Positions 1-64,000 of a stretch of DNA of 64,000 bases are shown here, one piece after another (position 1 is the stretch's first letter; every line of letters begins with the position of its first letter). This DNA is from Phytophthora sp. 'mugwort' (lineage: Eukaryota > Oomycota > Peronosporomycetes > Peronosporales > Peronosporaceae), in assembly GCA_033558025.1 (NCBI GenBank), contig JAUCEF010000007.1, positions 1,426,001 through 1,490,000 of the forward strand. Direction: 5' to 3'. Under the pieces are notes generated by a model. That model searched no databases, was not told the origin of the DNA, and was given only the letters and a program-made list of their open reading frames with translations. Made by a program: the position numbers and the translations under genes.

Positions 1-541
1 TTTCGTCCCGCCGCGTCATTATTTACCTAAATTTGTCAAGCAGCTAGCTTCTGTTATTTAACGCGAGAGTGGCTACATCCTCTAGATGTAAGCTCTGCAT
101 TCACCGAGATTGGGGTTTTGCGCTCCCTATCGATCGAAGTAAAGCTACAGGCCTGCTTTGAAAAGAGCTGCAAAGATGACACTGAAAGCGGCAACGACGA
201 CATCGTGATTCAGTACACACAATAAATGTTTTAAAATGAGTATCTTAGCAAACTGAAGGCAGCGACTAAGTTAAGCAGCAGACGTTGAAGTGAACAACTA
301 TTTTGGTTTTGCGAAGACGAGAACCAGTGCATGGCTGCTCGGATCAGAGCCGTTCTGGTGCGAGCCAACACGAAGCAAAGACTGGCTTCATTGTCAACTC
401 CTATTCCGTGCCCTGGTCTCTCTCTCATCAAATCGGCGTTCGTCGAGGGATGTAATTGGGGCAACAAGAGCAAAGCACACCGCGCACACCAGCACTTTGC
501 CCGTAGCAGTGGCCGTGGCCCTGTCGTGCATGCTGCCCGTC
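1..541. other. Upstream region of the coiled-coil gene, no gene recognised
   Basis: No independent gene is recognised here. The reading frame of the downstream coiled-coil gene stays open back to an ATG at 290. The 84 extra residues this would add are of mixed composition and lack the charged, low-complexity character of the rest. This stretch is more likely leader or an upstream exon. Confidence 0.4.
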
Positions 542-2158
542 ATGACAGACCGGCGACGCAAGCGGAAAACTACCGACAGTTCCACCGATGACACGGTTAG
601 GGATTTCAATACTGTCGACCCCATCCAAGTTCGCAGACAGAGCGACTGCAGCGACCATGAGAGCAAAGTTCGACAAGAGTCATGGATGTCTAAAGTCTCG
701 TTTGCCATGAGCTCTCGCATCTTCTCGGGAGGGAAGAAACTCAGCAGTTCTCGTAGTACTCAAGTGATGCCGATTGGCGCTGTCCAAAGTGACAAGAGCA
801 AGGGGTCGATGGGGCGCATGTCTTCTTCGTCGTTGGTGGAAACGGAGTTGCTACAAGCGCCTCCCTCCACTTCATTCAGCGGTCAACAGGCATTGCGTCA
901 AGTTGCGTCAGAGAAAACTCTAGGGAGCTTCATTGATCCAACCAGCAATTCGTCACCGATATCGACGTTTGGTTCATGCTCAAGCGTAACTTGTGACGTT
1001 GCACCGGACGACAATGACTCCTGCTGCCAAGACGATGTAGACGTACATCGCTGGTCCTCAAACGGCTCGGAACATCGCCGTCTTGATAATCAGCAGCGGG
1101 GTAATGTTCGGCGACAACGCTTCAGCACCATGATACAAAAAGTGAGACCAGGAGATACCTGTGATGAAGACAACGGCGAAGAGGAGAATATGATGGTCAG
1201 ATCCTCGAAAACACGAGTGCCGTCAAACTCGACCGGAATGGTACGCTCACGGGAGACTCGTAAGGATGCCGACGCCGAGATTAATGTGCAGGACGCCACA
1301 CCGATTCTGAAAGGCTTTTTTAGCAAAAGCGTGTCAGTCAGTAAAGAGCAGCGTCAACAGCAGCGTCAACAAAGGAGAGAGACTCTCTATCGAGAAAGCA
1401 AACAGCGACAGGATAAACTTCGTGAGCAAACCGAGCGTGAACGAATAGCAAGCGAGGAGTCGACTCGTAAAAAGAAGGTGGAGCAACTCCGCCGACTCAA
1501 TCAACAACGCAGGGTGGAATTGCTGCGAAATGCTGCCAGCGTCCGAAAAGGTCTACTCGAACATATTCAAGAGGACAACAGCATGTACCAGGCGGAGCGT
1601 GAACGTTGGGAATATGACTTCGAGAGTGAGATGAGGGTGCTAAGTGTGGCATTCCGGAAAGCACGTACCTCTGATGAAAACCGCCCGATGACTGTTGCAG
1701 GACTCGCGGTGCCGGAAGCACTTTCGCAGTTAGAACGCGACGCATCTAACGTTGAAAAGCGGGCGAGGACAGCGCAGCCAACATTGGCTACTGTGACTTC
1801 TCTCCAGCGGAGTACAGAACGTCCCAATACCAGTGGGCCCATCCCAAGCAGCATTGACAACGATCTATTGTCATCCCCCTTCTTTGAGTTCAGCGATGTG
1901 TTAGCGCTAGAAGACTCACAAGACGTCTTCGACTTGTTCAGAAACGATGACCCTATGAGAGACGTATTTCCACCCAAGGACAGCAATGTATTGGATTACT
2001 GCAAGCAGCCCGATCTTGACATAAATCAATTGCTTGGCGAGCGCAAACAACTCCTCCAGCGCGTCGCTGCGATCGATCGCATTGTCCGGGCTCAGCAACA
2101 AGGGAAGCAGCAAACACCCAAGCGGCCTAGTTTCCATAGTAACACCGTTTTCCAGTGA
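542..2158 (+). CDS. Coiled-coil protein of unknown function
   Basis: Uninterrupted frame of 538 codons from ATG 542, ending in TGA at 2156-2158. I do not recognise the family. The N-terminal half is Ser/Thr/Asp-rich and probably disordered, with a basic RRRKRK patch just after the start. Residues about 268-366 form a strongly charged Gln/Arg/Glu-rich helix (QQQRQQRRE, KQRQDKLREQTERER, KKKVEQLRRLNQQRR) that should be a long coiled coil. It is followed by a conserved-looking segment (YQAERERWEYDFESEM) and an acidic, Asp/Phe-containing C-terminal part. The frame is also open upstream to ATG 290 (622 residues). ATG 542, or ATG 530 four codons before it, is preferred because the upstream sequence looks unlike the protein. 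It lies head-on to the CIA2 gene, with stops only about 75 nt apart. The undamaged frame and coherent composition argue for a real host gene; a structural or cytoskeletal role is only a guess. Confidence 0.7.
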   Translation: MTDRRRKRKTTDSSTDDTVRDFNTVDPIQVRRQSDCSDHESKVRQESWMSKVSFAMSSRIFSGGKKLSSSRSTQVMPIGAVQSDKSKGSMGRMSSSSLVETELLQAPPSTSFSGQQALRQVASEKTLGSFIDPTSNSSPISTFGSCSSVTCDVAPDDNDSCCQDDVDVHRWSSNGSEHRRLDNQQRGNVRRQRFSTMIQKVRPGDTCDEDNGEEENMMVRSSKTRVPSNSTGMVRSRETRKDADAEINVQDATPILKGFFSKSVSVSKEQRQQQRQQRRETLYRESKQRQDKLREQTERERIASEESTRKKKVEQLRRLNQQRRVELLRNAASVRKGLLEHIQEDNSMYQAERERWEYDFESEMRVLSVAFRKARTSDENRPMTVAGLAVPEALSQLERDASNVEKRARTAQPTLATVTSLQRSTERPNTSGPIPSSIDNDLLSSPFFEFSDVLALEDSQDVFDLFRNDDPMRDVFPPKDSNVLDYCKQPDLDINQLLGERKQLLQRVAAIDRIVRAQQQGKQQTPKRPSFHSNTVFQ

Positions 2159-32974: not shown

Positions 32975-35749
32975 ATGCTCAGTCGCCCCCCGCTGTCGGC
33001 TGCCGTGGTGGTCGCTGTCACGGCCGTCTTGGCTCCCACCGAAGCGCTCAAGAACCTCAAGACCGATTGGGACGCCTATGTCAATGAGCTGCCCATTCCG
33101 GAGGTCATCGACCTGACCGCCGGAGGTGCCATCGACATGCAGATTGGCCGCGCCACGCACAACTGGACGGCGGACGGCTCCATCTCGGGCGACATCTATG
33201 GCTACGCGCTCAAAAACTCGACGCCCACTATGCCTGGCCCGACTATCAAAGTCGCCAAAGGGGTGCCGATTACCATCACCTGGTACAATGAGCTGTCCCA
33301 GCCTCACCTGCTGCAAGACTCAGTCGAAGACTCGCTCAACAATGTCGAGTCCTCTTGCTACCCGTACTGCGGTGTACCCGTTGTCACACACGTGCACGGA
33401 CTGGAGTCTCCTCCTGAATACGACGGTCTGCCATACCGGACCATCTACAAGAATCAGTCACAGGAGTTCCACTACTACAACAACCAGTCTGCGTCAACTA
33501 AGCTCTATCATGACCACTCCAATGGCCTCACACGCCTCAACACGTGGGCCGGTCTCATGGGCGCATACATCATAACCGATGACGAGCTCGAGGCGTCGCT
33601 CAACATGGACATTGAAACGGACATTCCGCTGGTGCTAACTGACCGTTTAATCAATACTACGGGTTCACTCCTCTACTCGGACGACAACTGCAATGCCGGC
33701 TCGACGAAGTGGGTGCCCGAGTCTTTCGGTTCTGTCAACCTTGTGAATGGCGTGATCATGCCGTACGTCGCGGTGCCGCCTGCTCAGGTGCGCTTCCGCT
33801 TGTTTAACGTCGCCAACGCTCGTCACTACAACATCTCCGTGCCGTTCAAGGACAAGTGCCAGATCGTCGCCACCGACTCTGGCTTCGTTCAGAAGCCCGA
33901 GTCGTTCGAGGATTACCTCGTCCTCTTCCCGTTTGAGCGTATCGAGTTCGTCTGCGACTTCACTAACGACACCAGCGGCACGACATACGACTTCGAGGAT
34001 AACCAGACGGCTGACCAGCCTACGGTTTACGACGAACGTATTATGCAGATCCGTGTTGTGGAGAGCCTCAAGACCGGCACGATGGAGTACCGCGAGATCC
34101 CACGGACCCTTGTCACGTACAAATCGCTGAAGGAGCTGTACGAAGCCGGTGGAAAGGAACGTACTGTCATCCTCGGAGAAATGGACACGGCACTCCAGTG
34201 CCCCCTGTACGGCATGATCATGTACCGGTCGCAGCAGATCAACATGACGAGTATCACGGGAAGTCTACACTGCACGAAAGGCAAAGTGGAGAAATGGAAT
34301 TTCCAGAACCCGACCGATGATCCGCATCCATTCCACTGGCATTTGGTGAACGCGCAGTGTGGTGAGACGGAGGAAACCATCGACATGAACCACCTGAAGG
34401 ATGTTGCTAAAATCCCAAACGCCGGGGACCGTGCCACGGATACTATTACCCAGGTTTGCTACGTCGCTTGCACCCCAGATGAGTACCTTATTGCTAATAG
34501 CACTCGTGGTGCCAAGGACTTTGGATTTGACACAACGGAGCCTTACGTTGCTCATTGCCACATTCTCGAGCACGAAGAAAATTCCATGATGAGCTGGTTC
34601 AAGATCATGGACGTGGACGATGGATACGCCGATGACAACGGCATAACCGCAGGCACCGAGATTACCAACACAGTTATTGCCACAGCTATGGGCATGAGTG
34701 TGCTAGGTGGTATTGCCACGACATTGTCGGTACTGGTGATCTCGGTCGAGCGCTTGAAATTCCTCGCCGATCCGCGTTCGCTTTCAATCGCCTTTGCGCT
34801 CTCTGCCGGTGTCATGATCTTCATCGCTTTTGCCGACTTGTACGCTGAAGCTCTGACCTACTACCGTGCTGCGTTTACTCCTGGTACGAGTGACCCCGAG
34901 GCTTACGAGCACGGTGGAAGCACCACGTCCACCGGAGTGTGCGACGACACGTGCAACGGAAACACGTACTTGGCGGCTACGGGCGTCTTCTTCGTTGGCA
35001 TGGCGATCATTCTGTTCGTGGAGTGGCTGGTGCACTCCGTCTTCGAGCACAAGGACCGAGCTGCCGCTAAGGCCGCAGCCAACGGCGACTTAGAGCTCGC
35101 TCATGCTGACGCTGAGAAGGCCTTGATGATGGATGATGGGTCTGAAAAGCCCAATGGTCTCCACATTGCTTCACCGTTGCCAGGGACCCCTCTTCCAGAC
35201 GATACATCCCGGCAAGAGCTTGCCAGTCCTGTTGGCGAGGAGTCTAAAGCTCTTTTAGAGGAAGAGATGAAGGTGAAAGAAGAGTACCGTCGAGCTGGTG
35301 TTTTGACGGGCATTGCCATTGCTATTCACAACTTCCCTGAGGGACTGGCGCTGTTTGTCTCCTCGCTCGCTGGTCTCCGCACGGGCATCGTCCTTTCGGT
35401 TGGTATCATTCTTCACAACTTCCCCGAGGGTGTGGCTGTGGCTGCCCCCGTCTACTATGCTACGGGTAGTAAAATGGAGGCGTTCAAGTGGACGATCATC
35501 AGTGGGTTTGCCCAAGTTCTTGGTGCCGGCATCGGCTGGGCCGCTGTCTCAGGCGGTATGAGCTACGCTCTGGAAGCCACGCTGTACGCTCTCGTCGCAG
35601 GCATGCTGGTATGCATCACCGCTAAGGAGCTTCTGCCTGGTGCCTACAGGTTCGACCCGAGTGGAAAGCTCTTCGTGCCGTCATTCTTCATTGGCATCGC
35701 CATCATTGCGCTGAGTCTTGTGGCTCTCAACTACGCTGGATCAAGTTAG
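32975..35749 (+). CDS. Multicopper oxidase-ZIP metal transporter fusion (copy 1)
   Basis: Single exon, 924 residues. A signal peptide occupies about residues 1-25. Residues about 30-550 form a three-domain CotA/bilirubin-oxidase-like multicopper oxidase with all copper clusters: HVHG (H139, H141), HDH (H179, H181), HPFHWH (H451, H454, H456), and HCHILEHEENSMM (H527, C528, H529, H533) with a likely axial Met538. Residues about 560-924 form a ZupT-like ZIP transporter with about eight membrane helices. Its TM4 and TM5 carry HNFPEG twice (H785 and H814), followed by AAPVYYATGSK. The loop between TM3 and TM4 is acidic and lacks the usual His cluster. By topology the oxidase should sit outside the cytoplasm, tethered to the transporter. 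Oxidases of this class take electrons from metal ions or phenolics and reduce O2; ZIPs move Zn, Fe or Mn into the cytosol. Substrate is unknown. Start chosen from the Inr and from alignment with copy 2. Confidence 0.92.
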   Translation: MLSRPPLSAAVVVAVTAVLAPTEALKNLKTDWDAYVNELPIPEVIDLTAGGAIDMQIGRATHNWTADGSISGDIYGYALKNSTPTMPGPTIKVAKGVPITITWYNELSQPHLLQDSVEDSLNNVESSCYPYCGVPVVTHVHGLESPPEYDGLPYRTIYKNQSQEFHYYNNQSASTKLYHDHSNGLTRLNTWAGLMGAYIITDDELEASLNMDIETDIPLVLTDRLINTTGSLLYSDDNCNAGSTKWVPESFGSVNLVNGVIMPYVAVPPAQVRFRLFNVANARHYNISVPFKDKCQIVATDSGFVQKPESFEDYLVLFPFERIEFVCDFTNDTSGTTYDFEDNQTADQPTVYDERIMQIRVVESLKTGTMEYREIPRTLVTYKSLKELYEAGGKERTVILGEMDTALQCPLYGMIMYRSQQINMTSITGSLHCTKGKVEKWNFQNPTDDPHPFHWHLVNAQCGETEETIDMNHLKDVAKIPNAGDRATDTITQVCYVACTPDEYLIANSTRGAKDFGFDTTEPYVAHCHILEHEENSMMSWFKIMDVDDGYADDNGITAGTEITNTVIATAMGMSVLGGIATTLSVLVISVERLKFLADPRSLSIAFALSAGVMIFIAFADLYAEALTYYRAAFTPGTSDPEAYEHGGSTTSTGVCDDTCNGNTYLAATGVFFVGMAIILFVEWLVHSVFEHKDRAAAKAAANGDLELAHADAEKALMMDDGSEKPNGLHIASPLPGTPLPDDTSRQELASPVGEESKALLEEEMKVKEEYRRAGVLTGIAIAIHNFPEGLALFVSSLAGLRTGIVLSVGIILHNFPEGVAVAAPVYYATGSKMEAFKWTIISGFAQVLGAGIGWAAVSGGMSYALEATLYALVAGMLVCITAKELLPGAYRFDPSGKLFVPSFFIGIAIIALSLVALNYAGSS

Positions 35750-36703: not shown

Positions 36704-39439
36704 TTAGCTCGAGCCGGCATACTTCAAGGCCATGACGCTGAGCGCTATCACAGCCAGACCACCAAAGAACGCCACCACGAACGCCTTGCCGCTCGGGTCG
36801 AACTTGTACGCCCCTGGCAGTAATTCCTTCACTGTGATGCACACCAGCATACCGGCCACGATTCCGTAGAGTGAAGCTTCCAGCGCGTAGCTCATACCAC
36901 CAGACACTGCAGCCCAGCCGATAGCAGCTCCAAAAGGCTGCGCGATTCCACTCAGGGCCGTCCATTTGAATGCCTCCAGCTTGCTTCCAGTGGCATAGTA
37001 CACTGGAGCAGCCACAGCAACACCTTCCGGGAAGTTGTGCATGATAATTCCAATGGAGAGCACAATACCTGATCGAAGTCCAGAGAGTGACGAGACAAAG
37101 AGAGCAAGGCCCTCGGGGAAGTTGTGAATGGCAACAGCAATGCCCGTCATAACACCAGCGCGGCGATATTCTTCCTTTTGGGTAGTGTTTTGTTCAAGCA
37201 GGTTGGACGATTCCGCGGTGGATGGACTTTGAAGTTCGTCGTGATTGGAGGCAGCTGGGCTTTCAGGGACCGGCGAAAACGCAAGCCCAGTCTTGTCACC
37301 TTCTTCCATCTCACCCGCATCTACAGGGACATTAGACTTTTCACCGACAGCTTTCTTTTTCCCGAATAACGAGTGTACCAAGAACTCCACTAACAAAATG
37401 ACAAGCACACCACCAAAAAATGCAGCCAACGTGGTCAAGTAGGCATTACCGTTGCAGGTATTGTCGCAAGTTCCGGTGCTGGCCGACCCACCCTTCTCGT
37501 ATGCCTCCGGGTCTACGTTGCCGGTCGTGTAATGAGCTCGGTAGAACGTCAACGCCTCACTAAAGAGATCTGCCAGGCCAATGAACAGCATTACACCCGA
37601 TGAAAGCGCGAACGCCACAGAAAGTGCCAACGGACTGGCAAGGAAATTCAAGCGCTTCACGGAAATCACCAACACAGACAGCGTCGTAGCAAGGCCACCC
37701 AGTACACTCATGCCCATAGCCGTCGCGATCACGGTGTTCGTGATGGTAGTGCCTGGAGTGATACCGTTGTCATCCGCATACCCGTCATCGACGTCCATGA
37801 TGTTGAACCATGCCATCATTGCGTTTTCCTCATGCTCAAGAATATGACAGTGAGCAACATACGGCTCCGTGGTGTCGAAATTGAACTCCTTGGCACCACG
37901 TGTACTTCCCTCAAGAAGATAATCGCCTGGTGTACAAGCTACATAGCACACCTGCGTAATGGTATTCGACGCGCGGTCGCCAGCATTCGGGATCACGACC
38001 ACGTCCTTGAGCTCGTTCGTGTTGACGGTTTCCTCGGTCTCACCACACTGAGCGTTGATCAAATGCCAGTGGAATGGGTGCGGGTCATCAGTGGGGTTCT
38101 GGAAGTTCCACTTCTCAACCGTTCCCTTGGTGCAGTGCAGATTTCCCGTGATACCGGACGTGTTCACCTGCTGCGAACGGTAAAGCAGAATGCTCATGGT
38201 AGGGCATAGCACATCCGTCTCCATTTCACCTAGAATTAACGTGCGCTCCTTGCCACCTGCCTCGTACAGCTCCTGGAGGGACTTGTACGGGGTCAGTGAA
38301 GATGGAATTTCTTTCACCTCCATCGTGTCGGTCTTCAGACTCTCTAGGACTCGGAACTGCATTACACGGTTGTCATACGGGAAAGCCTGATCCGACGTCT
38401 GCTTGTCCTCCAGATCGTAGGTCGTGCCATTCTTGTCACGACTAAAGTCACACACAAATTCCAAGCGCTCGAAGGGGAAAATCACGAGGTCCTCACTCAA
38501 AGCCTTGGGTTCTCCGACAAAGCCCGAGTCGGTAGCCACGACTTGACATTTGTTTGCGAACGGCATCGTCAAGTTGTAGTGACGAGCATTGGCGGCATTC
38601 ACCAAGCGGAAGCGCACCTGAGCAGGCGGTATCTCGACGTACGGCATCACAACACCGTTCACCAAATTCACCGACCCGAAAGACTCGGGCACCCATACGG
38701 TGGCACCATCGTTGCAATTGTCATCGGAATACATGATCTTGCCGGCGTTGTTGATGAGACGGTCCGTCAAAATGAGTGGAATATCCGTCTCGATATCAAG
38801 GTTGAGCGAGGACTCAAGTTCCTCATCACTAATGATGTACGCGCCCATGAGACCAGCCCACGTGTTGAGACGGGTGAGACCGTTCGCGTGGTCGTGGTAC
38901 GTCTTTGTCGATGCCGACTGGTTGTTCAGGTAGACGAACTCTTGTGACTGGTTCTTGTAGATCGAAAGGAACGGGAGACCGTCGTATCTTGCAGGTGACT
39001 CCATGCCGTGGACGTGTGTTACGACAGGTACGCCGCAGTACGGGTAGCACGCAGATGCATGCTGCGTGAGTGTGTACTGCACGCTTTCTTGGAGGAGGTG
39101 CGGGGCCTCGAGCTCGTTATACCAGGTGATGTTGATCGGCACGCCCTTGGCGACCTTGATCGTAGGTCCTGGGGACGTGGGCGTGGAATTCTTGAGAGCG
39201 TATCCGTAAATGGCACCAGAAATGGACCCGTCTTCGGTCCAGTTATGTGTCGAGCGGCCAATTTGCATGTCAATAGCGCCTCCACCAGTCATGTCGATGA
39301 CCCCCGGAATGGGGAGCACGCTGACATAGGCGCTCCAATCGGTCTTGAGGTCATTGAGTGCGTAGGTCGGGGACAAAAGAGCTGCGGCGCCTAGCGCCAA
39401 AGCTATTGCCGACGGTATGGACGATCGAGGGGAAGGCAT
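36704..39439 (-). CDS. Multicopper oxidase-ZIP metal transporter fusion (copy 2)
   Basis: Single exon, 911 residues, similar to copy 1 along its whole length and in opposite orientation. A signal peptide (about 1-28) is followed by the oxidase with HVHG (H142, H144), HDH (H182, H184), HPFHWH (H454, H457, H459) and HCHILEHEENAMM (H530, C531, H532, H536, M541). The ZIP part begins near residue 563 and has the two HNFPEG motifs at H772 and H801. Divergence is greatest in the TM3-TM4 cytosolic loop (about 693-760), which shares little sequence with copy 1 and is shorter. Every catalytic and transport motif is kept, so both copies are probably under selection. The tail-to-tail layout suggests an inverted local duplication, after which the genes diverged. 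Several antisense ORFs over this gene are shadows. Confidence 0.92.
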   Translation of the reverse strand: MPSPRSSIPSAIALALGAAALLSPTYALNDLKTDWSAYVSVLPIPGVIDMTGGGAIDMQIGRSTHNWTEDGSISGAIYGYALKNSTPTSPGPTIKVAKGVPINITWYNELEAPHLLQESVQYTLTQHASACYPYCGVPVVTHVHGMESPARYDGLPFLSIYKNQSQEFVYLNNQSASTKTYHDHANGLTRLNTWAGLMGAYIISDEELESSLNLDIETDIPLILTDRLINNAGKIMYSDDNCNDGATVWVPESFGSVNLVNGVVMPYVEIPPAQVRFRLVNAANARHYNLTMPFANKCQVVATDSGFVGEPKALSEDLVIFPFERLEFVCDFSRDKNGTTYDLEDKQTSDQAFPYDNRVMQFRVLESLKTDTMEVKEIPSSLTPYKSLQELYEAGGKERTLILGEMETDVLCPTMSILLYRSQQVNTSGITGNLHCTKGTVEKWNFQNPTDDPHPFHWHLINAQCGETEETVNTNELKDVVVIPNAGDRASNTITQVCYVACTPGDYLLEGSTRGAKEFNFDTTEPYVAHCHILEHEENAMMAWFNIMDVDDGYADDNGITPGTTITNTVIATAMGMSVLGGLATTLSVLVISVKRLNFLASPLALSVAFALSSGVMLFIGLADLFSEALTFYRAHYTTGNVDPEAYEKGGSASTGTCDNTCNGNAYLTTLAAFFGGVLVILLVEFLVHSLFGKKKAVGEKSNVPVDAGEMEEGDKTGLAFSPVPESPAASNHDELQSPSTAESSNLLEQNTTQKEEYRRAGVMTGIAVAIHNFPEGLALFVSSLSGLRSGIVLSIGIIMHNFPEGVAVAAPVYYATGSKLEAFKWTALSGIAQPFGAAIGWAAVSGGMSYALEASLYGIVAGMLVCITVKELLPGAYKFDPSGKAFVVAFFGGLAVIALSVMALKYAGSS

Positions 39440-49955: not shown

Positions 49956-52900
49956 TCCTCCGGCGAGTGACTTCGAGTCGAAGCTTGTGGAACTCTTCGA
50001 CGAGAACCTTCCAGTGGGAGACGTGGTTGATGTCGCTTTCATATTCTCATGTTACCTCGTGGTCTGGGTATCCGTTCCACTTGATCAACCATTGTTTCTT
50101 GCGGTTCACGATTCCGTGTTTAAGAAGTTTTTCGACGAAATACATTTCTTCACCGGTGTTCTCGTCCACGACGACCCGCGATGTTTTGGGTATTGGTCGG
50201 CTCTTGAACCGCTCGTGATCTTGGACAAAATGCGCTAAAATATCCACATTAAATGTGGGGTTCATTCTCTGCATGTTTGCGGGTAATTGGAGTTTTGCGA
50301 CGTTTTCCCCGATCATTTTGACGATTTTGAATGGACCGATCTTCCTTGCTGCAAGTTTTGCACGTTTAACTTCCATGTCCTGTGCTGCGTGTCGAAGGGG
50401 AAGACGGCGAGTGTCGAGCATCACCAACTCGCCCACTTTGAACGCAACGTCATTGCGCTTTTGGTCATAATAGCGTTTTTGTGACTCTTGTGCGTGCTTT
50501 AAATGCACTCTTGCTTGTTCGACGAGCTTCTGCCGATCTTCGTGGAATGTTTTCGCGAATTCGGCAATGTCGGGTTCGGGGTTGTTAGCGCTCGCAGCTA
50601 GCGCTGTTGGGAGTCCGATAGGTAGTCGCTCTTTGCGTCCCGTGTCGATTTCGAACGGCGACAGTCCCGTTGAGGCACTAGTTAGAGTTGCGTGTGCATA
50701 CTCTGTCGTTGGTATTTCTGACCAATCCTGGCCATGATACGAAGTCATACAACGAAGTGCGTCTTCCAGAACGAGATTCTGTCTCTCTGTCTGGCCGTCA
50801 GCCTGAACTCGGTGCGCGGTTGTCATGTTCAATTTGATGCCCATAATTTTAGCGAGCGAACGCCAACATTTCGATGTAAATTTCGGGTCTCGATCGCTGA
50901 TGATGACTGCGGGTATTCCATGGTGTCGCACGACATTGTCGAAAAAGATGTGGGCAGTTTTCTCTGCGTCGTCCGTTGTATTCACTGCGATGTACTTGGG
51001 ACGTTTTGAGAGTTTGTCGACGACTGTTAGGATCGCATCAAATCCGTTGGATTCCGGTAAGCCGGTGATGAAGTCCATTGACACCACTTCCCAACATTCT
51101 TTGGGGATTGGAATAGGAACGAGTTTCCCATTTTTCTTGGCGTTGCTGTGTTTCCATCTTGCACATGTTTCGCAACTTGTGACGTAGTCGTAGATGTCTT
51201 TCTCCATGTTTTTCCAGTAGTACCATTGTGCAACCCGAAGGAATGTGCGCCGAACTCCGGGATGTGCTGCAATGGCTGCGTCGTGCAAACCCGAGATGAT
51301 ATTTGTGCGAAGTTGGTAGTCGTTCGGCACACAAAGTCGCAATGTCTTGTTTTGCGTGTGTAAATATACTAGCTCGTCGATTATCTCGAATTTGTTGGAG
51401 TTGATGCCTTCTTTGATGTCCTTGTCGCTTTTGTAACCTTGCACAAACATTTTTTGAACGGAAGGTGCGAGTGTCATAAAGCTTTGTGACACAGTCATGG
51501 CGGAGGAAATTTGAGGCAAAGACGCTCCCCCGACAATTTGCTTCGCCGTGGGTGTGGCACGAAAGCTTTCTTTATACGCAATTGCATGCGTTCTGCATTG
51601 ATCCGAGCAACGATGGAACTGGATAGAGCTGACGTCGGTGGGTTGTCGCGATAATGCGTCTGCAACCGCATTCAAACTTCCGCTAACATGATGGATCTGG
51701 AAGTTGAATTGCGCGAAAAATGTCAAATAGCGTGCTAACTTGGAAGACACTTTAGGATGGTGCAACAACCATGAGCATGCGCTGTTGTCGGTGAAGAGGA
51801 CAAAAGGCCGTCCGTAGAGGTAGTGACGCCATTTCTCGAGTCCTGTTTTGATCGCGAATAATTCCTTCTCGTGTGTGGGCCAATTCAGCTCGTGTGGTCC
51901 CAGCTTCTTCGAGTAGAACGCAATTGGATGGTCGTTTGTGCCATATTTTTGCGAAATAACTCCACCAACACAGTGTCCCGACGCATCCGTGGTTACAATA
52001 AATTCGCGTTCGAAGTCGGGCAATTTAAGCACAGGCGCAATTTGCAGAGCGTCTTTGAGTGCTTGAAATGCGTTGTTTTGCGATGCATGCCATTCCCATT
52101 TTGCATCTTTCTTGACTAACGCGCTCAAAGGCAGCGCTAGTGTAACAAGGTTGCAGATAAACCGACGGTAGTAGCCTGCAAGTCCTAGAAAGCGCTGAAG
52201 CTCTTTGGTGTTTGCTGGTGTCGTCCATTTGGCGATAGCCTCCGTCTTCTTCGTATTGACAGCGATGCCTTGTGCGGAGACGGTGTGTCCGAGGAAGTTA
52301 ACGATTTTGCGCCAAAATGACACTTGGTAACTTGAGCGTACAATTTCTCGCGTTGCAGTACTTGGAACAGCGTCTCTAGATGCCCAGTGTGTTCGTCCAT
52401 AGTCTTGGAGAAGACGCAAATGTCGTCAAGATAGACCACAATAAATGAGTATTTGCCAAACAGAACCCGCATGAGACGTGACCACACGCCCGGCATGCCT
52501 GCAAGGCCCATTGGTGCAACACACCATTGATATGTCTGTGTGTGTGTGTGCGGAATGCGGTGTATTTGCGAGACTCAGGGGATATGCGCATTTGGTGGTA
52601 ACCCTGCGCGAGATCGAGCACTGAGAACACCGTAGCACCGTGCATTTTGTCGAACAGCTCTTCCATTCGCAGTAAAGGGATTCTTGGAACTATGGTTTGC
52701 GAATTAACATACCGATAGTCAATAACCCAACGAATCGGTAGTGTTGCATTCCCGGATCGCACCCACTCCGATGGTGAAGGTTGTGTCCCTGTTTGCGGAT
52801 CTTTTTTGGGAATACCAAATACATTGGACACCCAGGGAGAATCGGAGATTTCAATCCATCCCTTCTTCAGCTTCTCTTCCACAAACAGGTCGAGAGCGTC

Positions 52901-54778
52901 TTGCTCCGTCTTGGACAACCGGAAAGGTGGACGATTGCTTTTTGCGTCTGGTTTTGTTGTCAACTCGAACTCGACGCGGCGGTGAGGTGGTAACCCGTCT
53001 GGTAATGCCTTGGGGAATACTTCTTGATACGTCGCAATTAGCGACTCGATGCGTGTTGGTATAGTTGACAGTTGCGTATCGACCTGGCACACCTTGACGC
53101 GGTAGACCTCTTCGTAGCTTTGTTGTTTGAGCCTTTTTGCAAACTCCACACTGGAGACTTGTGTCGCAATTTTTATCGCAATTTGTGTTGCGGGTTGCTC
53201 GTATTGTGGGCGTTCATGTTCTTGTCGTGATATTTCTGGTCGATGGTTGGATTCGATGTCCAAACTTGGCTTAGCGGTTGGTTGAGCAGGATTCAATACA
53301 CCTGGTGTGGGTTCGATTCCCAAAGGCCATCTTTTATTGTTGCCTTCCTCAAAGCTGACTTCGTGCGTCTGATAGTTGATCTGGGGATTGTACCGATGGT
53401 AAAAGGGCTTTCCCAGGATCATGTCTTGTCCATCGCCCATTTTCCACTCGATGACGCGGATGTTGAAACTTCGACCCCCTACCTCGAGGTCCACCAATCC
53501 ATGCTTGGCCTCTTGAGTCGTGGTGGTTGTGCCATCGAACCTCTTGACCTTGATGTGTTCGGAGGTGGCCAGGTGGCCGAGTACTCCAGGCTTCACAATG
53601 TTGTCGGTGGCTCCACTGTCGAACATAACTATCACGTCGTTGCCGTTGCACTTGGCAGGGATACGCACTAACTCATGTTCCCCGTATTCCTCCTTGGAGA
53701 TGGGGGCGTTGTGGTTAACTTCCACTACAGTCTCCTCTCTCGCACTTGGTGTTGGATCGACGACGAATTCCACGGTGTTGGTTTCCGTGTTGTGAGTGTC
53801 ATACTCTTCGATGTCGTGAGTACCATACTCCTCGGTGTTTCCCTCCTGTTCGAAGTAATTGACCGCCGTTCTGCGCCAAGGCTGATTTGCAGGGGCACCG
53901 TTGTTTTGTCTGCGTGCATCGCTGTTCTTCTTCTTGTAGCATTCGCTGATGAGATGCCCAGTCTTCTTGCAATACGCACAAACTTTCCGTGGCTGGTGTG
54001 ATGGTTGCGGATTATACCGAACTTGTGCGTTGTCGATTTCCATGGGTTCCGGACCCGAATTACGCGACTGGTATGGTCGACCAAACTTCGTGTTCCTGGC
54101 GAACTGGGGAGCTTGTTGCTGATACCTTGGTTGACTTGAGAACCTTTGTGGAGGTCGCTGGTGGCAGTCATATCGTTGATTGAACGATCCGCCGAAATGA
54201 GTGCGTTCGTACTCGAGAACTGCAAAGCACTCCGAGATCGTGTCGCATTGGCGGTATTCCACTTCGCGGCCTAATTGGGCGACAAGTCCACGCGTAAAGT
54301 ACGTGATTTTGTCCAGTTCACTAATGTCTTTGACTTGCGTCAGCAACATTCGGAACCTGCCAATGTAGTCTTCGAGGGACTTGCATCGATTCTGACGCAA
54401 CTGGTATAGTTGGTCACGCAACCGACGCTGATTGTCCCGAGGCACAAACTCATTCGTGGGTAAGTGCATGAGGTCTTGCACGTCATGGACATTGCTGCGG
54501 TTCAGCATGTACCACGCGGCTGCATTTCCTCGGAATTTTGCGCTCATCATGGCCACAATGCGTGAGCCGTTGACTGGGTCTTCCCAGTTGATGTTTTTGG
54601 CCTCAAGGAACCGCATGACTTGGTCAAAGTATAGATCGACCGATTCTCCAATCTCACCCGAAAAATGTGGGAGTGAGATGCTTTCGACTCGCGTTTCTTT
54701 GCGTGCGAGTTGCTCCATAAGTTGTTGCTGCCTTTCGGCGAGCTCTGTCATTTGTTTCACTAGATCGAGGATACTCAT
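49951..54778 (-). pseudogene. Gypsy Gag-Pol polyprotein, disabled
   Basis: From ATG 54778. Gag (about residues 1-260) is followed by a CX2CX4HX4C knuckle (CAYCKKTGHLISEC, C267 to C280), protease (FDSGATDN, Asp387), then RT from about residue 592. RT has FSVLDLAQGYHQM and, in another frame, VVYLDDICVF. RNase H follows (TTDASGH, THEKEL, FTDNSA, ADALSR). Integrase has an HHCC finger (CETCARW) and catalytic residues in VSMDFITG, IISDRDPKF and ADGQTERQN. A chromodomain-like end reads WLIKWNGYPDHEVT. There are three lesions. The frame shifts in the TG/CA dinucleotide run at 52534-52550 and again near the 4-nt T run 52305-52308. A TGA just before 50047 replaces the Trp expected in the chromodomain. 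The frame then runs on to a stop formed at the LTR junction (49951-49953). Confidence 0.9.
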
Positions 54779-60600: not shown

Positions 60601-62690
60601 TAAACCATACGCCACTTCCCGTTGGGTTTGCGCACCCAAAATGTCGGGGACGAATGCGGCGACATTGACTCGCGCACCATGCCGGCAGCATGTTTCGCCG
60701 CGAAGAACGCATCCATTACATCAGCTTGTTCCTGGCCACTGACGTGTGGTGCAGTAGTTGATACCAGGCTCCAATTCGATCTCGTGGCGAACGCCACGAT
60801 CGTGGAAATAAAGAAGTTTGTTTTTTCAGAGACCACATCCGAGTACTCCTTCAGCAGGGGATAATAAGGATCCGAGGAATCCCTTACAATGGTTGCGCCA
60901 TAACGCAGTTGTCTCTGCGAGGCCCTTTCCTCTTCTAGAACGTATGTGTCCATGACCGACGATCTATTAAGTTCTATCGAGTCCTGATCTCGGCAGAAAA
61001 GGACGAGGTCCCCACTTTCTCCCGCCTTTAATGACTTGAGGAACTCGACGTACGAGCGCTCTTCCATCTCCATGAGCTCCGACACACCGGGTAAGGGAGT
61101 TAGCTCAACACCCGCCTCGCTGTTTCCCGTGAGTATATCAACGACCACAGTGATGGACACCCCGCTCACTGGGCCAGCAGGTAGGGATGCAGCCTCGCTG
61201 CGAATCCCTTCATTTGTGGGAGTCTCTACTCGACCACCTTGGGTTGCGCGACGTCCGTTGCCAGCGTCTTCCTCATCTGCGTGAGCTGAACCAGCTCGGG
61301 CGCGTTGCGCTGTGGGAGCCTATGCTCGACCACCTTGGGTTTCAGAAACGACCACTCGTTCCGCATAGCCGGCGAAATGCCGTTCCCACGTGGCACTCGG
61401 TGCTCGTACACGAACCCGTCGCGAGATGAGGAGGGGACAAGACCCGCCAAAGCTCGATCCACGAGGGGTCTGTGACTAGCACCTACGGTGCGACTGCGCC
61501 AGTCAATCTACGGCTCATGCTTCACAAGCCAGGGCCTGCCGAGGATCAGGTCGTACCGATCGTCATTGTCGAGGACAATGAACGGTTCGACCGAGTTTTA
61601 AAGTCGTCAAATTGACATGCAAAGGGAGGAAAACTGAACTGGCAAATTGACATGAAAAGGGAGGAAAACCTTCCGCGTCGATACAATCGAACGGGTCGCT
61701 AGGATAACAAACACATTATGTTTACCATGAGAGTTTTCATAAGCTTTAGCATACAGTGTACTGTTCCTAGCAACGCTAGTTTGCATTGCGAAATTGTAGG
61801 ACGCTCCCGAATCGATCAGGATGGGCATAGACGCTTCATACCCTGGCAGTGACGGCCACGACGTTAGACCGCGTAGCGGCCACCGAGAGAAATAACAACG
61901 TTGTTTCAGGGATTGCTCTCCAGGGCGGAGAGGTGGCGTGGCCACCATAGACCGGGAAGGGGTCTCCCAGCAGGGCGTCCTGCACCTACTGGGGGGAGCA
62001 TTCGTTTCGACAAGTTGGAGTCAATCACATTGAGCGACGACGACGCCGAGGTGCCCTTGCCACGGTTGATTCGCCACGGGTTTGTCGGGCAATTGCGACG
62101 GAAGTGGCCTACTTCGTTGCAGCCGAAACAACGACCACTCGCTTGTGGTTTCCTCGAAGTGAGTCGAGCCGACTAGGCCGAACAGATCTCCATGGGGATG
62201 GGGCCCTTAGACGAGTCCGAAGGGCCAGCATGCCCTTGTGCAGAACGCACATAGTGGTGTTCGAGCAGAGCGAGGTGTACTGCCTCATTGAAGGTTTTGG
62301 GTTGACGCCGAAAGAGCTCCGTCTGCACCGGACCCGTGCGGACACCATCCATGAACACCGTGACCTTCAAGGCCTCCGAGAGGAGAGCTCCGGCCATAGC
62401 CGCTTCAAGGTTTTGCAGTTCCGTAACATAGTCTTGAAGGGAGTGCATGCTTGCTTGCTTCGCAAGAACAGGAGCGGTGGCGATACGCCACGTTGGCCAA
62501 CAGAAAATTCTTGCGGAGCTCCTGTTTCATGAACGACCGTGAGTGAACTACCCCAGAGACGTGGTCTCTCGAACCATGCCCGACCTCCCAGGTTCGACAG
62601 GGCGAAGGCGACTTGAGATCTCCGCTTCGGCGAAGTGTTTCGTCGCTGGGTACGCGTGATGTTTCCTGGGACTTTGGTGGCGCTACTATC
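57640..62690 (-). pseudogene. Older gypsy polyprotein relic
   Basis: On the minus strand, in order: Gag C-terminal half (62692-62173, with YVTELQNLEAAMAG and VTVFMDGVRTG); a zinc knuckle CFGCNEVGHFRRNC near 62065-62110; protease with MPILIDSGAS near 61800-61830; pol linker and RT start (61169-60519, with SSPTFWVRKPNGKWRMVYAF); RT core with FRLDMVDGYYQ and YFDDIFVHS near 60310-60290; an RNase H start (CVASDFTIGCALLQ, near 59860); integrase finger (59302-59057, CETCQRV); integrase DGQTERVNRG near 58750-58785 in a shifted frame; the post-integrase part (58491-57925); and a chromodomain (57810-57660, YLVKWRGYPSSNNTWETESR). Many stops and shifts are present and no LTR was found at either end. Both ends abut plus-strand LINE-like sequence. 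Confidence 0.8.
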
Positions 62691-64000
62691 AACGGTAGCC
62701 CACTTTCGCCCTTTGAATTAGGGAGAGGCCTGCGGCAAGGAGACCCTCTCTCCCCGGGTCTGTTCGTGCTTTACGCAGAACCTTTGCTGAACTTGATTCG
62801 CGCCAAGATGAAGGATGCTGGACTTCGGTGTGGAGACTCTTCGGTGGGCCATACAGTTATCAGCTTTGCTGATGACTGCACTGGACTACTGAGGGACCTG
62901 CAGGACACTCAGCGTCTACTGGACTTGGTGGAGCTCTTCTGTGAGGCATCGGGCATGGAGCTGAACAAGAACAAGACCGTGGTGCTGCCTTTCCACCCCT
63001 GGAACAGTGAAACCGACAGCATCCGTGAGGAACTACAGCAATTGGGACTAAAGGTTGTTGAGAACAACGACTCGGCCAAACTGCTTGGTATATACTACGG
63101 TCCCAAGTTCACAGACGCGGCACGGTTACAGCACATATTGGCGGACATGCAGACAAGGTGTTCACCGTGGAAGTACCGGGCACGTACTCTACGAGGACAA
63201 GTGGTCATCCTACAACAGATTATCTTGCCTGTTCTCTGGTACACGGCCAGTGTCTGCTACATACCTGAAACTGGTTTCCAAGACCAAGTCCAGGACATGA
63301 TAGTACGGTTCATGACCCAGTCTTCTGTCGAACATCATGCCCCGAGCTTGGTGGGCATTGCCCATGCACATGGGTGGCCTCGGCTTAGCGCCTATGACAA
63401 CGATGATCGAGGGACCCCAACTACACATGCTCTGCAAGCTGCTCATGGCCGTACGCCGGTCACCTGATGATGTACCCTCATGGGCCACTCCAGTCATTGC
63501 GCTGTTTGACTCTGTGATGAAACCTTGGGGACGCGACTTTGACATCCTGTACGCGCCGGTCTGGAACAGCCCTCATCATGTGGTGTCTCGACGGCTAAGA
63601 CGATGGAGACCGCTTGGTTTGTATTGGCACCATGTTCACTTCCTTTGGAACACCAAACTGCGCCCCAAGATCACTCGCAACATGACCAAGTTTGACAAGT
63701 TGACAATGCCGCTGCTGGACAATGTGGATATCACGACTGCAACCAAGACGCCCAAGACCCTGCGAGCCGCAAACCTGGGCATTGTCCAAGACCTTATTCG
63801 CTTAAAGGTTTATCGGATATCTGACTTGTTTGAGCTTAGTGGATACCCGCCTCAAGCCGCCAAGCTATCCCAAGTCATCCGTGAGCATGGCCAGCCTAGG
63901 AGTGCTAACAGCGTGAGCTTCTGCGGATCTTTCTTAACTAAGATTGACTCGCAGTTACGACCGTTGGCCAACATGCCCATTGGATCCCGCCCCAAGCCAC
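62640..64000 (+). pseudogene. LINE reverse transcriptase, truncated, runs off the right edge
   Basis: Plus strand. RT palm has RGLRQGDPLSPGLFVLYAEP and the catalytic VISFADDCTGLL near 62860-62895, then GMELNKNKTVVLPF and LLGIYYGPKF, and a thumb region (TLRGQVVILQQIILPVLWYT). One frameshift near 63355-63395 moves the frame; it then stays open to the window end (GGLGLAPMTTMIEGPQLHML onward, VMKPWGRDFDILYAPVWN). The 5' side starts in mid-palm next to the decayed gypsy gag, so the endonuclease and RT fingers are missing. The family differs from the LINE pair at 5-11 kb. Confidence 0.8.

Follow-up and report, generated by a model that had tools for sequence, protein, structure and literature searches.

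A conserved oomycete protein joining a probable ferroxidase to a ZIP metal carrier

Are a multicopper oxidase and a ZIP metal transporter encoded as one protein in oomycetes, and if so, what would such a protein do? The question is raised by a 64,000-nucleotide stretch of the genome of Phytophthora sp. 'mugwort' (contig JAUCEF010000007.1, positions 1,426,001 to 1,490,000, forward strand; hereafter the window), in which a sequence-only reading had noticed one frame running from a complete oxidase into a complete ZIP domain. That frame was confirmed as a single open frame of 924 codons from ATG to stop, gene 1, with three Pfam domains above cut-off: Cu-oxidase_3 (45.8 bits, cut-off 21, aa 136-203), Cu-oxidase_2 (43.0 bits, cut-off 20.4, aa 428-544) and Zip (105.5 bits, cut-off 35.1, aa 570-912). 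The frame is still open for 80 codons upstream of 32975, and the ATG at that position agrees with the start of relatives such as P0061. The oxidase is complete as described, with the copper motifs HVHG, YHDH, HPFHWH and HCHILEHEENSMM, and so is the ZIP domain, with its two HNFPEG motifs at aa 785 and aa 814. The fusion does occur twice in the window: gene 2, lying tail to tail with gene 1 and 72% identical to it over 905 alignment columns, has the same three domains, all above their Pfam cut-offs (Zip, PF02535, at 117 bits versus 35.1). The two genes and the parts of gene 1 are:

32975..35749, plus strand: gene 1, multicopper oxidase-ZIP fusion, 924 aa, single open frame from ATG to stop
32975..33049, plus strand: signal-peptide-like hydrophobic N-terminus, aa 1-25, hydropathy peak at aa 7-25
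33050..34615, plus strand: three-cupredoxin multicopper oxidase domain, aa 26-547
34616..34663, plus strand: inter-domain linker, aa 548-563 (about 16 residues), pN 0.08 between the two copies over aa 548-566
34664..35740, plus strand: ZIP transporter domain with eight main helices, aa 564-922
36704..39439, minus strand: gene 2, another multicopper oxidase-ZIP fusion, of 911 aa, converging on gene 1

Comparison of the two copies indicates that the frame is translated through the junction, because synonymous sites are saturated between them (pS 0.709) while pN is lower in the linker (0.08, aa 548-566) and across the junction (0.085, aa 540-600) than in the whole protein (0.173). The linker is, by this measure, under strong purifying selection; the most changeable parts are the loop between TM3 and TM4 (pN 0.45) and the signal region (pN 0.42). 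The homologues tell the same story. The check proposed with the first reading, a search for proteins matching both Pfam Cu-oxidase and Zip, found both domain types in 76 of the best 120 of 134 homologues, spread over the oomycetes, many of them 860-945 aa long and a few partial. That two separate products arise from one locus, or that the fusion is a prediction artefact, is thus very improbable. Some deposited gene models do lack one half or part of one (P0061, P0062), but selection across the linker and the many double-domain homologues speak against such a reading, as do two metagenome contigs that barely exceed their frames (P0036, 909 aa on 2947 bases; P0038, 908 aa on 2949) and that, from the size of contig against frame, look like single transcripts. 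A frame error or assembly join, which had been thought unlikely from the second copy in the window, is ruled out by homologues with both domain types from many species together with the selection at the junction.

Among the best 120 of 134 homologues, every fused protein with an organism assigned is from an oomycete (Phytophthora, Nothophytophthora, Globisporangium, Pythium, Lagenidium, Albugo, Aphanomyces, Saprolegnia, Achlya and Thraustotheca), and the rest are metagenome records. The search scored only the 7995 candidates sharing most words with the query; among the matches listed from this pre-filtered set there was no fusion outside oomycetes, and none from a fungus, animal or plant. The viral contigs scanned held no relative of the fusion. 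Paralogues often come from one species, probably from one contig, as for P0003 and P0019 of P. pseudosyringae and P0018, P0041 and P0082 of P. cinnamomi.

The oxidase also occurs in other company. Starting from the unfused protein P0094, a search found 61 proteins, among them unfused oxidases from Aphanomyces and from other records. In P0081, P0082 (P. cinnamomi) and P0083 (P. fragariae), the same oxidase carries a Ser/Thr/Asn-rich tail of 258-400 residues instead of a ZIP domain, and the ZIP has apparently been swapped for the tail, because these rows nest inside Phytophthora fused rows. The unfused relatives P0085, P0086 and P0251 carry a hydrophobic stretch at the C-terminus or close to it, of the kind expected for a GPI anchor or a single anchoring helix, which may be another way of tethering the same oxidase. 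An unrelated enzyme-ZIP fusion was also seen in the metagenome protein P0112, in which peptidase domains (PF04389, PF01546) are joined to a ZIP.

To what class does the oxidase half belong? Residues were counted in alignment A1, which holds 60 fused rows, 2 tailed rows that have no ZIP (P0082 and P0083) and 19 other oxidase rows. The HVHG histidines are taken here to be copper ligands by analogy with CotA. The sites of the oxidase half in gene 1 are:

33389..33400, plus strand: copper ligands HVHG, aa 139-142; His139 in 60/60 and His141 in 59/60 fused rows, the remaining row having a gap
33506..33517, plus strand: copper ligands YHDH, aa 178-181; His179 and His181 in 60/60 fused rows
33719..33721, plus strand: Glu249, aligned with iron-site motif 1 (E269) of LPR1, the motif being taken from an excerpt of PMC9168544; in 60/60 fused and 19/19 other rows
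34031..34033, plus strand: Asp353, candidate counterpart of LPR1 D370, the loop acid; Asp in 58 and Glu in 2 of 60 fused rows, Asp in 3/19 others
34307..34342, plus strand: NPTDDPHPFHWH, copper ligands and Asp449, the latter aligned with LPR1 D462; Asp in 58 and Glu in 2 of 60 fused rows, Asp in 19/19 others
34553..34591, plus strand: copper ligand block HCH-x3-H-x4-M, aa 527-539; H527, C528, H529, H533 and M538 in 60/60 fused rows

Set against the LPR1 triad E269/D370/D462, LPR1 being represented here by its published motifs alone, the fused rows have Glu249 in 60/60, Asp or Glu at 353 in 60/60 and Asp or Glu at 449 in 60/60. Glu249 and an acid at 449 are in fact present in every oxidase row of A1, whether fused (60), tailed (2) or other (19). 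Asp353 sits in a different loop from D370, and the published loop motif is unmatched; read strictly in 38 fused proteins, the published LPR1 motifs 1, 2 and 3 occur in 1, 0 and 37, respectively. At the two positions matching Glu249 and Asp449, CotA has Ala and Gly in the alignment. A loosely read motif-1 Glu is found in 22 of 73 readable bacterial loci (7 of the 80 had no frame bearing the HCH pattern), so that the iron site is not fixed across the wider oxidase family. LPR1 is reported, in the excerpts available of PMC9168544, to be a ferroxidase with an apparent KM near 2 uM, of which the E269A mutant lost about 80% of activity and the D462A mutant resembled control transfections. The oxidase half takes the CotA fold in the predicted model, and both window copies stay below the NCBIfam CueO equivalog NF008205 (158.5 and 159.1 bits versus a cut-off of 525). 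The earlier assignment to a CotA/bilirubin-oxidase-like class therefore stands as to fold and copper ligands, and is sharpened to CotA/LPR1-like with two iron-site acids absent in CotA; the oxidase half is probably a ferroxidase of LPR1/CotA-like type.

The ZIP half has the BbZIP fold in the predicted model, with the main metal site (M1) intact. The structure search with the whole model listed only oxidases, and the ZIP half was therefore folded and searched separately. Its features in gene 1 are:

35072..35272, plus strand: variable loop between TM3 and TM4, aa 700-766; pLDDT below 50 at aa 708-754, pN 0.45
35327..35344, plus strand: HNFPEG of TM4, main metal site; H785, N786 and E789 in 60/60 fused rows, aligned with BbZIP H177-E181
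35414..35431, plus strand: HNFPEG of TM5, main metal site; H814, N815 and E818 in 60/60 fused rows, aligned with BbZIP 207-211
35513..35515, plus strand: Gln847 where BbZIP has the second-site Glu, E240; Gln in 78 of the 79 fused sequences that could be read (80 found, P0055 being unreadable)

Among ZIP-only proteins, by comparison, the second site (M2) has Glu in 109 of the nearest 110 examined, drawn from the best 120 of 7828 hits; the other, P0167, is a fragment. Eleven of these hits were unreadable by pattern and were read by eye (10 Glu, and P0167). As a change specific to the fusion, the Glu-to-Gln replacement is weakened by three ZIPs of the same genome, L092, L094 and L097, which carry Gln too. 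The fused ZIPs of the window also fall below the NCBIfam ZupT equivalog NF003243 (183.5 and 181.6 bits versus a cut-off of 252). Elsewhere in the genome, a ZIP cluster on contig C9 (921800-938900; L092, L094 and L095) has HN[IL]AEG instead of HN.PEG in TM5; two of its members, L092 and L094, are among the ZIPs with Gln at M2.

The oxidase half probably lies in the lumen or outside the cell, because sequons are enriched in it and the N-terminus is signal-like. All 10 sequons of gene 1 fall in the oxidase half, as do 8 of the 9 in gene 2, the remaining one lying in the TM3-TM4 loop. Across 38 fused proteins, the oxidase halves have 266 sequons versus 150 expected after shuffling, and the ZIP halves 18 versus 35. 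From the extracellular machine first suggested, a non-cytosolic oxidase is the part that these features make likely. The predicted full-chain model has a pTM of 0.67, and closeness of the oxidase site to the ZIP pore is assumed in what follows.

The metal toolkit of the genome was surveyed by family profile searches in six frames of the assembly (86,260,535 bases, 154 contigs). Zip has 16 matches and Cu-oxidase_2 has 6, of which two in each case are the window fusions. Three of the four other oxidase matches have Cu-oxidase domains and no Zip hit, and the fourth lies in a 105-codon frame; by these searches, the two copies in the window appear to be the only fused ones in the genome. FTR1 (PF03239) gave 0 matches in six frames of the 86.3-Mb assembly, at a sensitivity that is uncontrolled for an intron-bearing genome; the same profile matched in 4 of 14 control genomes, all four prokaryotes. 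There are 12 ferric reductase matches, one with an internal stop, 7 whole or partial Nramp matches and 2 ferroportin matches. With no FTR1 match beside two ferroportin and 12 ferric-reductase matches, the iron toolkit looks unlike that of yeast. Elsewhere in the window, two long frames at 50047-54778 on the minus strand encode gag, protease, reverse transcriptase, RNase H and integrase with a weak chromo match, a Ty3/gypsy-like retroelement. A reverse-transcriptase fragment lies at 62613-63467 (plus strand) and a 622-aa open frame with no Pfam hit at 290-2158 (plus strand).

Phylogenetic analyses point to one old fusion. Trees were built with 38 fused proteins (13 in the tree with the genome's own ZIPs; A1 has 60) and midpoint roots; the tree program gave a long-branch warning, and P0256, with no readable HCH block, was omitted from the oxidase tree. 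The oxidase-half tree (78 rows) separates 63 oomycete or oomycete-like rows from 15 bacterial rows with support of 100/100. The outer rows among the 63 lack a ZIP, include one from EukProt, and are presumably eukaryotic. An inner clade of 51 (100/100) contains all 38 fused rows, 3 tailed Phytophthora-type rows and 10 unfused rows, five from Aphanomyces and five from other records; since these unfused and tailed rows sit inside the oomycete clade, the oxidase can exist without a ZIP. In the ZIP tree (70 rows), the 38 fused halves group together with 100/100 support, the single intruder being P0167, a partial gene model, and one old fusion is likely because the fused ZIP halves form one clade apart from that fragment. 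In a tree of 38 ZIPs that includes seven of the genome's own, 13 fused rows stay a clade and adjoin six of the seven together with P0131/P0132 (91/86); the seventh, L093, is on a very long branch. These trees suggest that a native ZIP was likely fused once with the oxidase before Aphanomyces and Saprolegnia split from Phytophthora, Pythium and Albugo, and we infer that this one fusion was followed by repeated losses of the ZIP.

Other origins were considered. Two independent fusions are not needed, the fused ZIPs being one clade, yet unfused oxidases occur in both oomycete oxidase branches. Transfer of the whole fusion finds no support, as the fused ZIPs group with six of the seven own ZIPs and P0131/P0132. 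The best bacterial-type match is P0096 (32%); proteins of its type occur in Acidobacteria, in Dyella and elsewhere among bacteria, many of them soil-derived judging by their record titles. A bacterial operon as ancestor was rejected, since the A2 ZIP profile (E 1e-3) matched a frame in 0 of 80 bacterial oxidase loci, searched with flanks of at most 4 kb (less where a contig ended), a negative that is weak because the profile missed 2 of the 13 Pfam-found ZIP loci of the genome (L086 and L088).

What, then, might the protein do? We tentatively favour, at somewhat short of even chances, a surface ferroxidase tethered to a divalent-metal importer, setting the redox state of iron at the pore mouth. 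Each gene would yield a single membrane protein residing at the cell surface or in the secretory pathway. Its signal peptide would direct the N-terminal LPR1/CotA-like oxidase away from the cytosol, and the linker, some 16 residues long, would tie this oxidase to the outward N-terminus of the ZIP carrier. At an acidic site next to the type 1 copper, the oxidase would take electrons from Fe(II) and pass them to O2, so that Fe(III) forms where the ZIP metal path begins. The ZIP, with its main site kept and Gln for Glu in the second, would bring a divalent metal, be it Zn, Mn or residual Fe, into the cytosol. The benefit would be an oxidative selectivity gate, by which Fe(II) from ferric reductases would be barred from following the other metal, or held to a safe dose. 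Ferroxidase activity, transport and its direction, gating and topology are all things that we infer from sequence features. In favour of this reading are the retained site residues of both halves, the two predicted folds, the ferroxidase activity reported for LPR1, the sequon distribution, and the 12 ferric-reductase matches beside 0 for FTR1. Counting against it are the strict LPR1 motifs 1 and 2, present in 1 and 0 of 38 fused proteins, the iron site that varies among bacterial relatives, the Gln shared with L092, L094 and L097, and the oxidases that occur without a ZIP inside the oomycete clade. A bolder and more doubtful form of this proposal is that oomycetes use the transporter-fixed ferroxidase to destroy competing Fe(II) at the pore mouth, so that a ZIP with a blunted second site imports another metal. 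We know of no transporter described as working by oxidation of a competing substrate at its pore mouth. On the side of the gate, Gln847 replaces the M2 carboxylate, and M2 of E. coli ZupT has, according to excerpts of a preprint (PMC11952358), been reported to prefer Fe2+; M2 disruption, according to the accessible part of PMC11549095, lowers zinc transport only modestly.

The same parts could be arranged otherwise. The main alternative, though rather unlikely, is Fet3-Ftr1-like iron uptake in one chain, with Fe(III) passed to the ZIP as an iron(III) or redox-gated iron permease. Yeast Fet3-Ftr1 is its precedent, the genome has ferric reductases and a role that may be vacant given 0 FTR1 matches, and the oxidase is ferroxidase-like by its site residues; yet the fused ZIP loses, rather than gains, a carboxylate, which makes it an odd Fe(III) carrier, and the REXXE pattern, which we take to be that of Ftr1, occurs in the ZIP half of only 2 of 76 scanned proteins having the ZIP motif. 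Furthermore, abstracts describe ZIPs as divalent-metal transporters. The original comparison with the yeast pair thus keeps the idea of an oxidase with its carrier and loses its detail, FTR1 being without a genome match, ZIPs being described as divalent-metal carriers and the second-site carboxylate being absent.

We regard as unlikely that the oxidase acts on another substrate, such as Mn(II), Cu(I) or a phenol, with the ZIP handling an unrelated metal or serving mainly as an anchor. Sequence is a poor guide to the substrates of multicopper oxidases, the fused proteins lack the LPR1 loop motif and P0081-P0083 have their Ser/Thr/Asn-rich tail in the place of the ZIP, but Glu249 and the acid at 449 in every A1 oxidase row (60 fused, 2 tailed, 19 others) argue against it, and the ZIP main site is kept in 60/60 fused rows, which a mere anchor would not need. 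Export and trapping, in which Fe(II) would leave the cytosol through the ZIP half or ferroportins and be oxidized to Fe(III) in the way that hephaestin works for ferroportin, seems more improbable still: the two ferroportin matches in the genome are consistent with it, and Drosophila Zip13 is described in an excerpt of PMC12218971 as moving iron from the cytosol to the ER/Golgi, whereas ZIPs as a family import and the sequence bears no sign of reversed transport.

The pairing is already visible in databases, where a JGI name reads 'FtsP/CotA-like multicopper oxidase with cupredoxin domain/zinc transporter ZupT'. No published description of the oxidase-ZIP architecture was found among the papers listed from open-access literature and judged by title and abstract start, most subscription journals lying outside that scope, and the terms multicopper and ZIP are absent from the main text of PMC2705460, PMC5023847 and PMC5176271. 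Oomycetes include major plant and fish pathogens as well as free-living relatives. Conserved among them, the joining of a probable ferroxidase to a ZIP carrier would open up their iron and zinc biology; if the protein is one machine, the coupling of oxidase and carrier could be tested in one molecule of fixed stoichiometry.

Both domains are well known, and ferroxidase and carrier partners are otherwise known as separate proteins. With LPR1 and Bacillus CotA, the fusion shares the three-cupredoxin CotA fold and the copper ligands, and with LPR1 also the iron-site Glu and Asp at matching motifs; unlike the fusion, LPR1 is described in the excerpts available as soluble and without a ZIP, and its strict motifs 1 and 2 are unmatched by the fusion. 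ZupT-like ZIPs such as BbZIP share the fold and the HN.PEG metal site in TM4 and TM5, but have Glu at M2 where the fusion has Gln and have no N-terminal oxidase, the fusion itself falling below the ZupT cut-off. Yeast Fet3-Ftr1 resembles the fusion in principle, as a surface multicopper oxidase beside a metal carrier, and differs in being two polypeptides, with Fet3 placed in another multicopper oxidase group in the excerpts of PMC9168544 and FTR1, which has no match in the genome, not being a ZIP. Hephaestin-ferroportin is likewise, in the partial accounts available, a membrane-tethered ferroxidase serving a metal carrier, but one of separate chains that works in export and has a six-domain oxidase, whereas the oomycete genes join a three-cupredoxin oxidase and a ZIP in a single frame.
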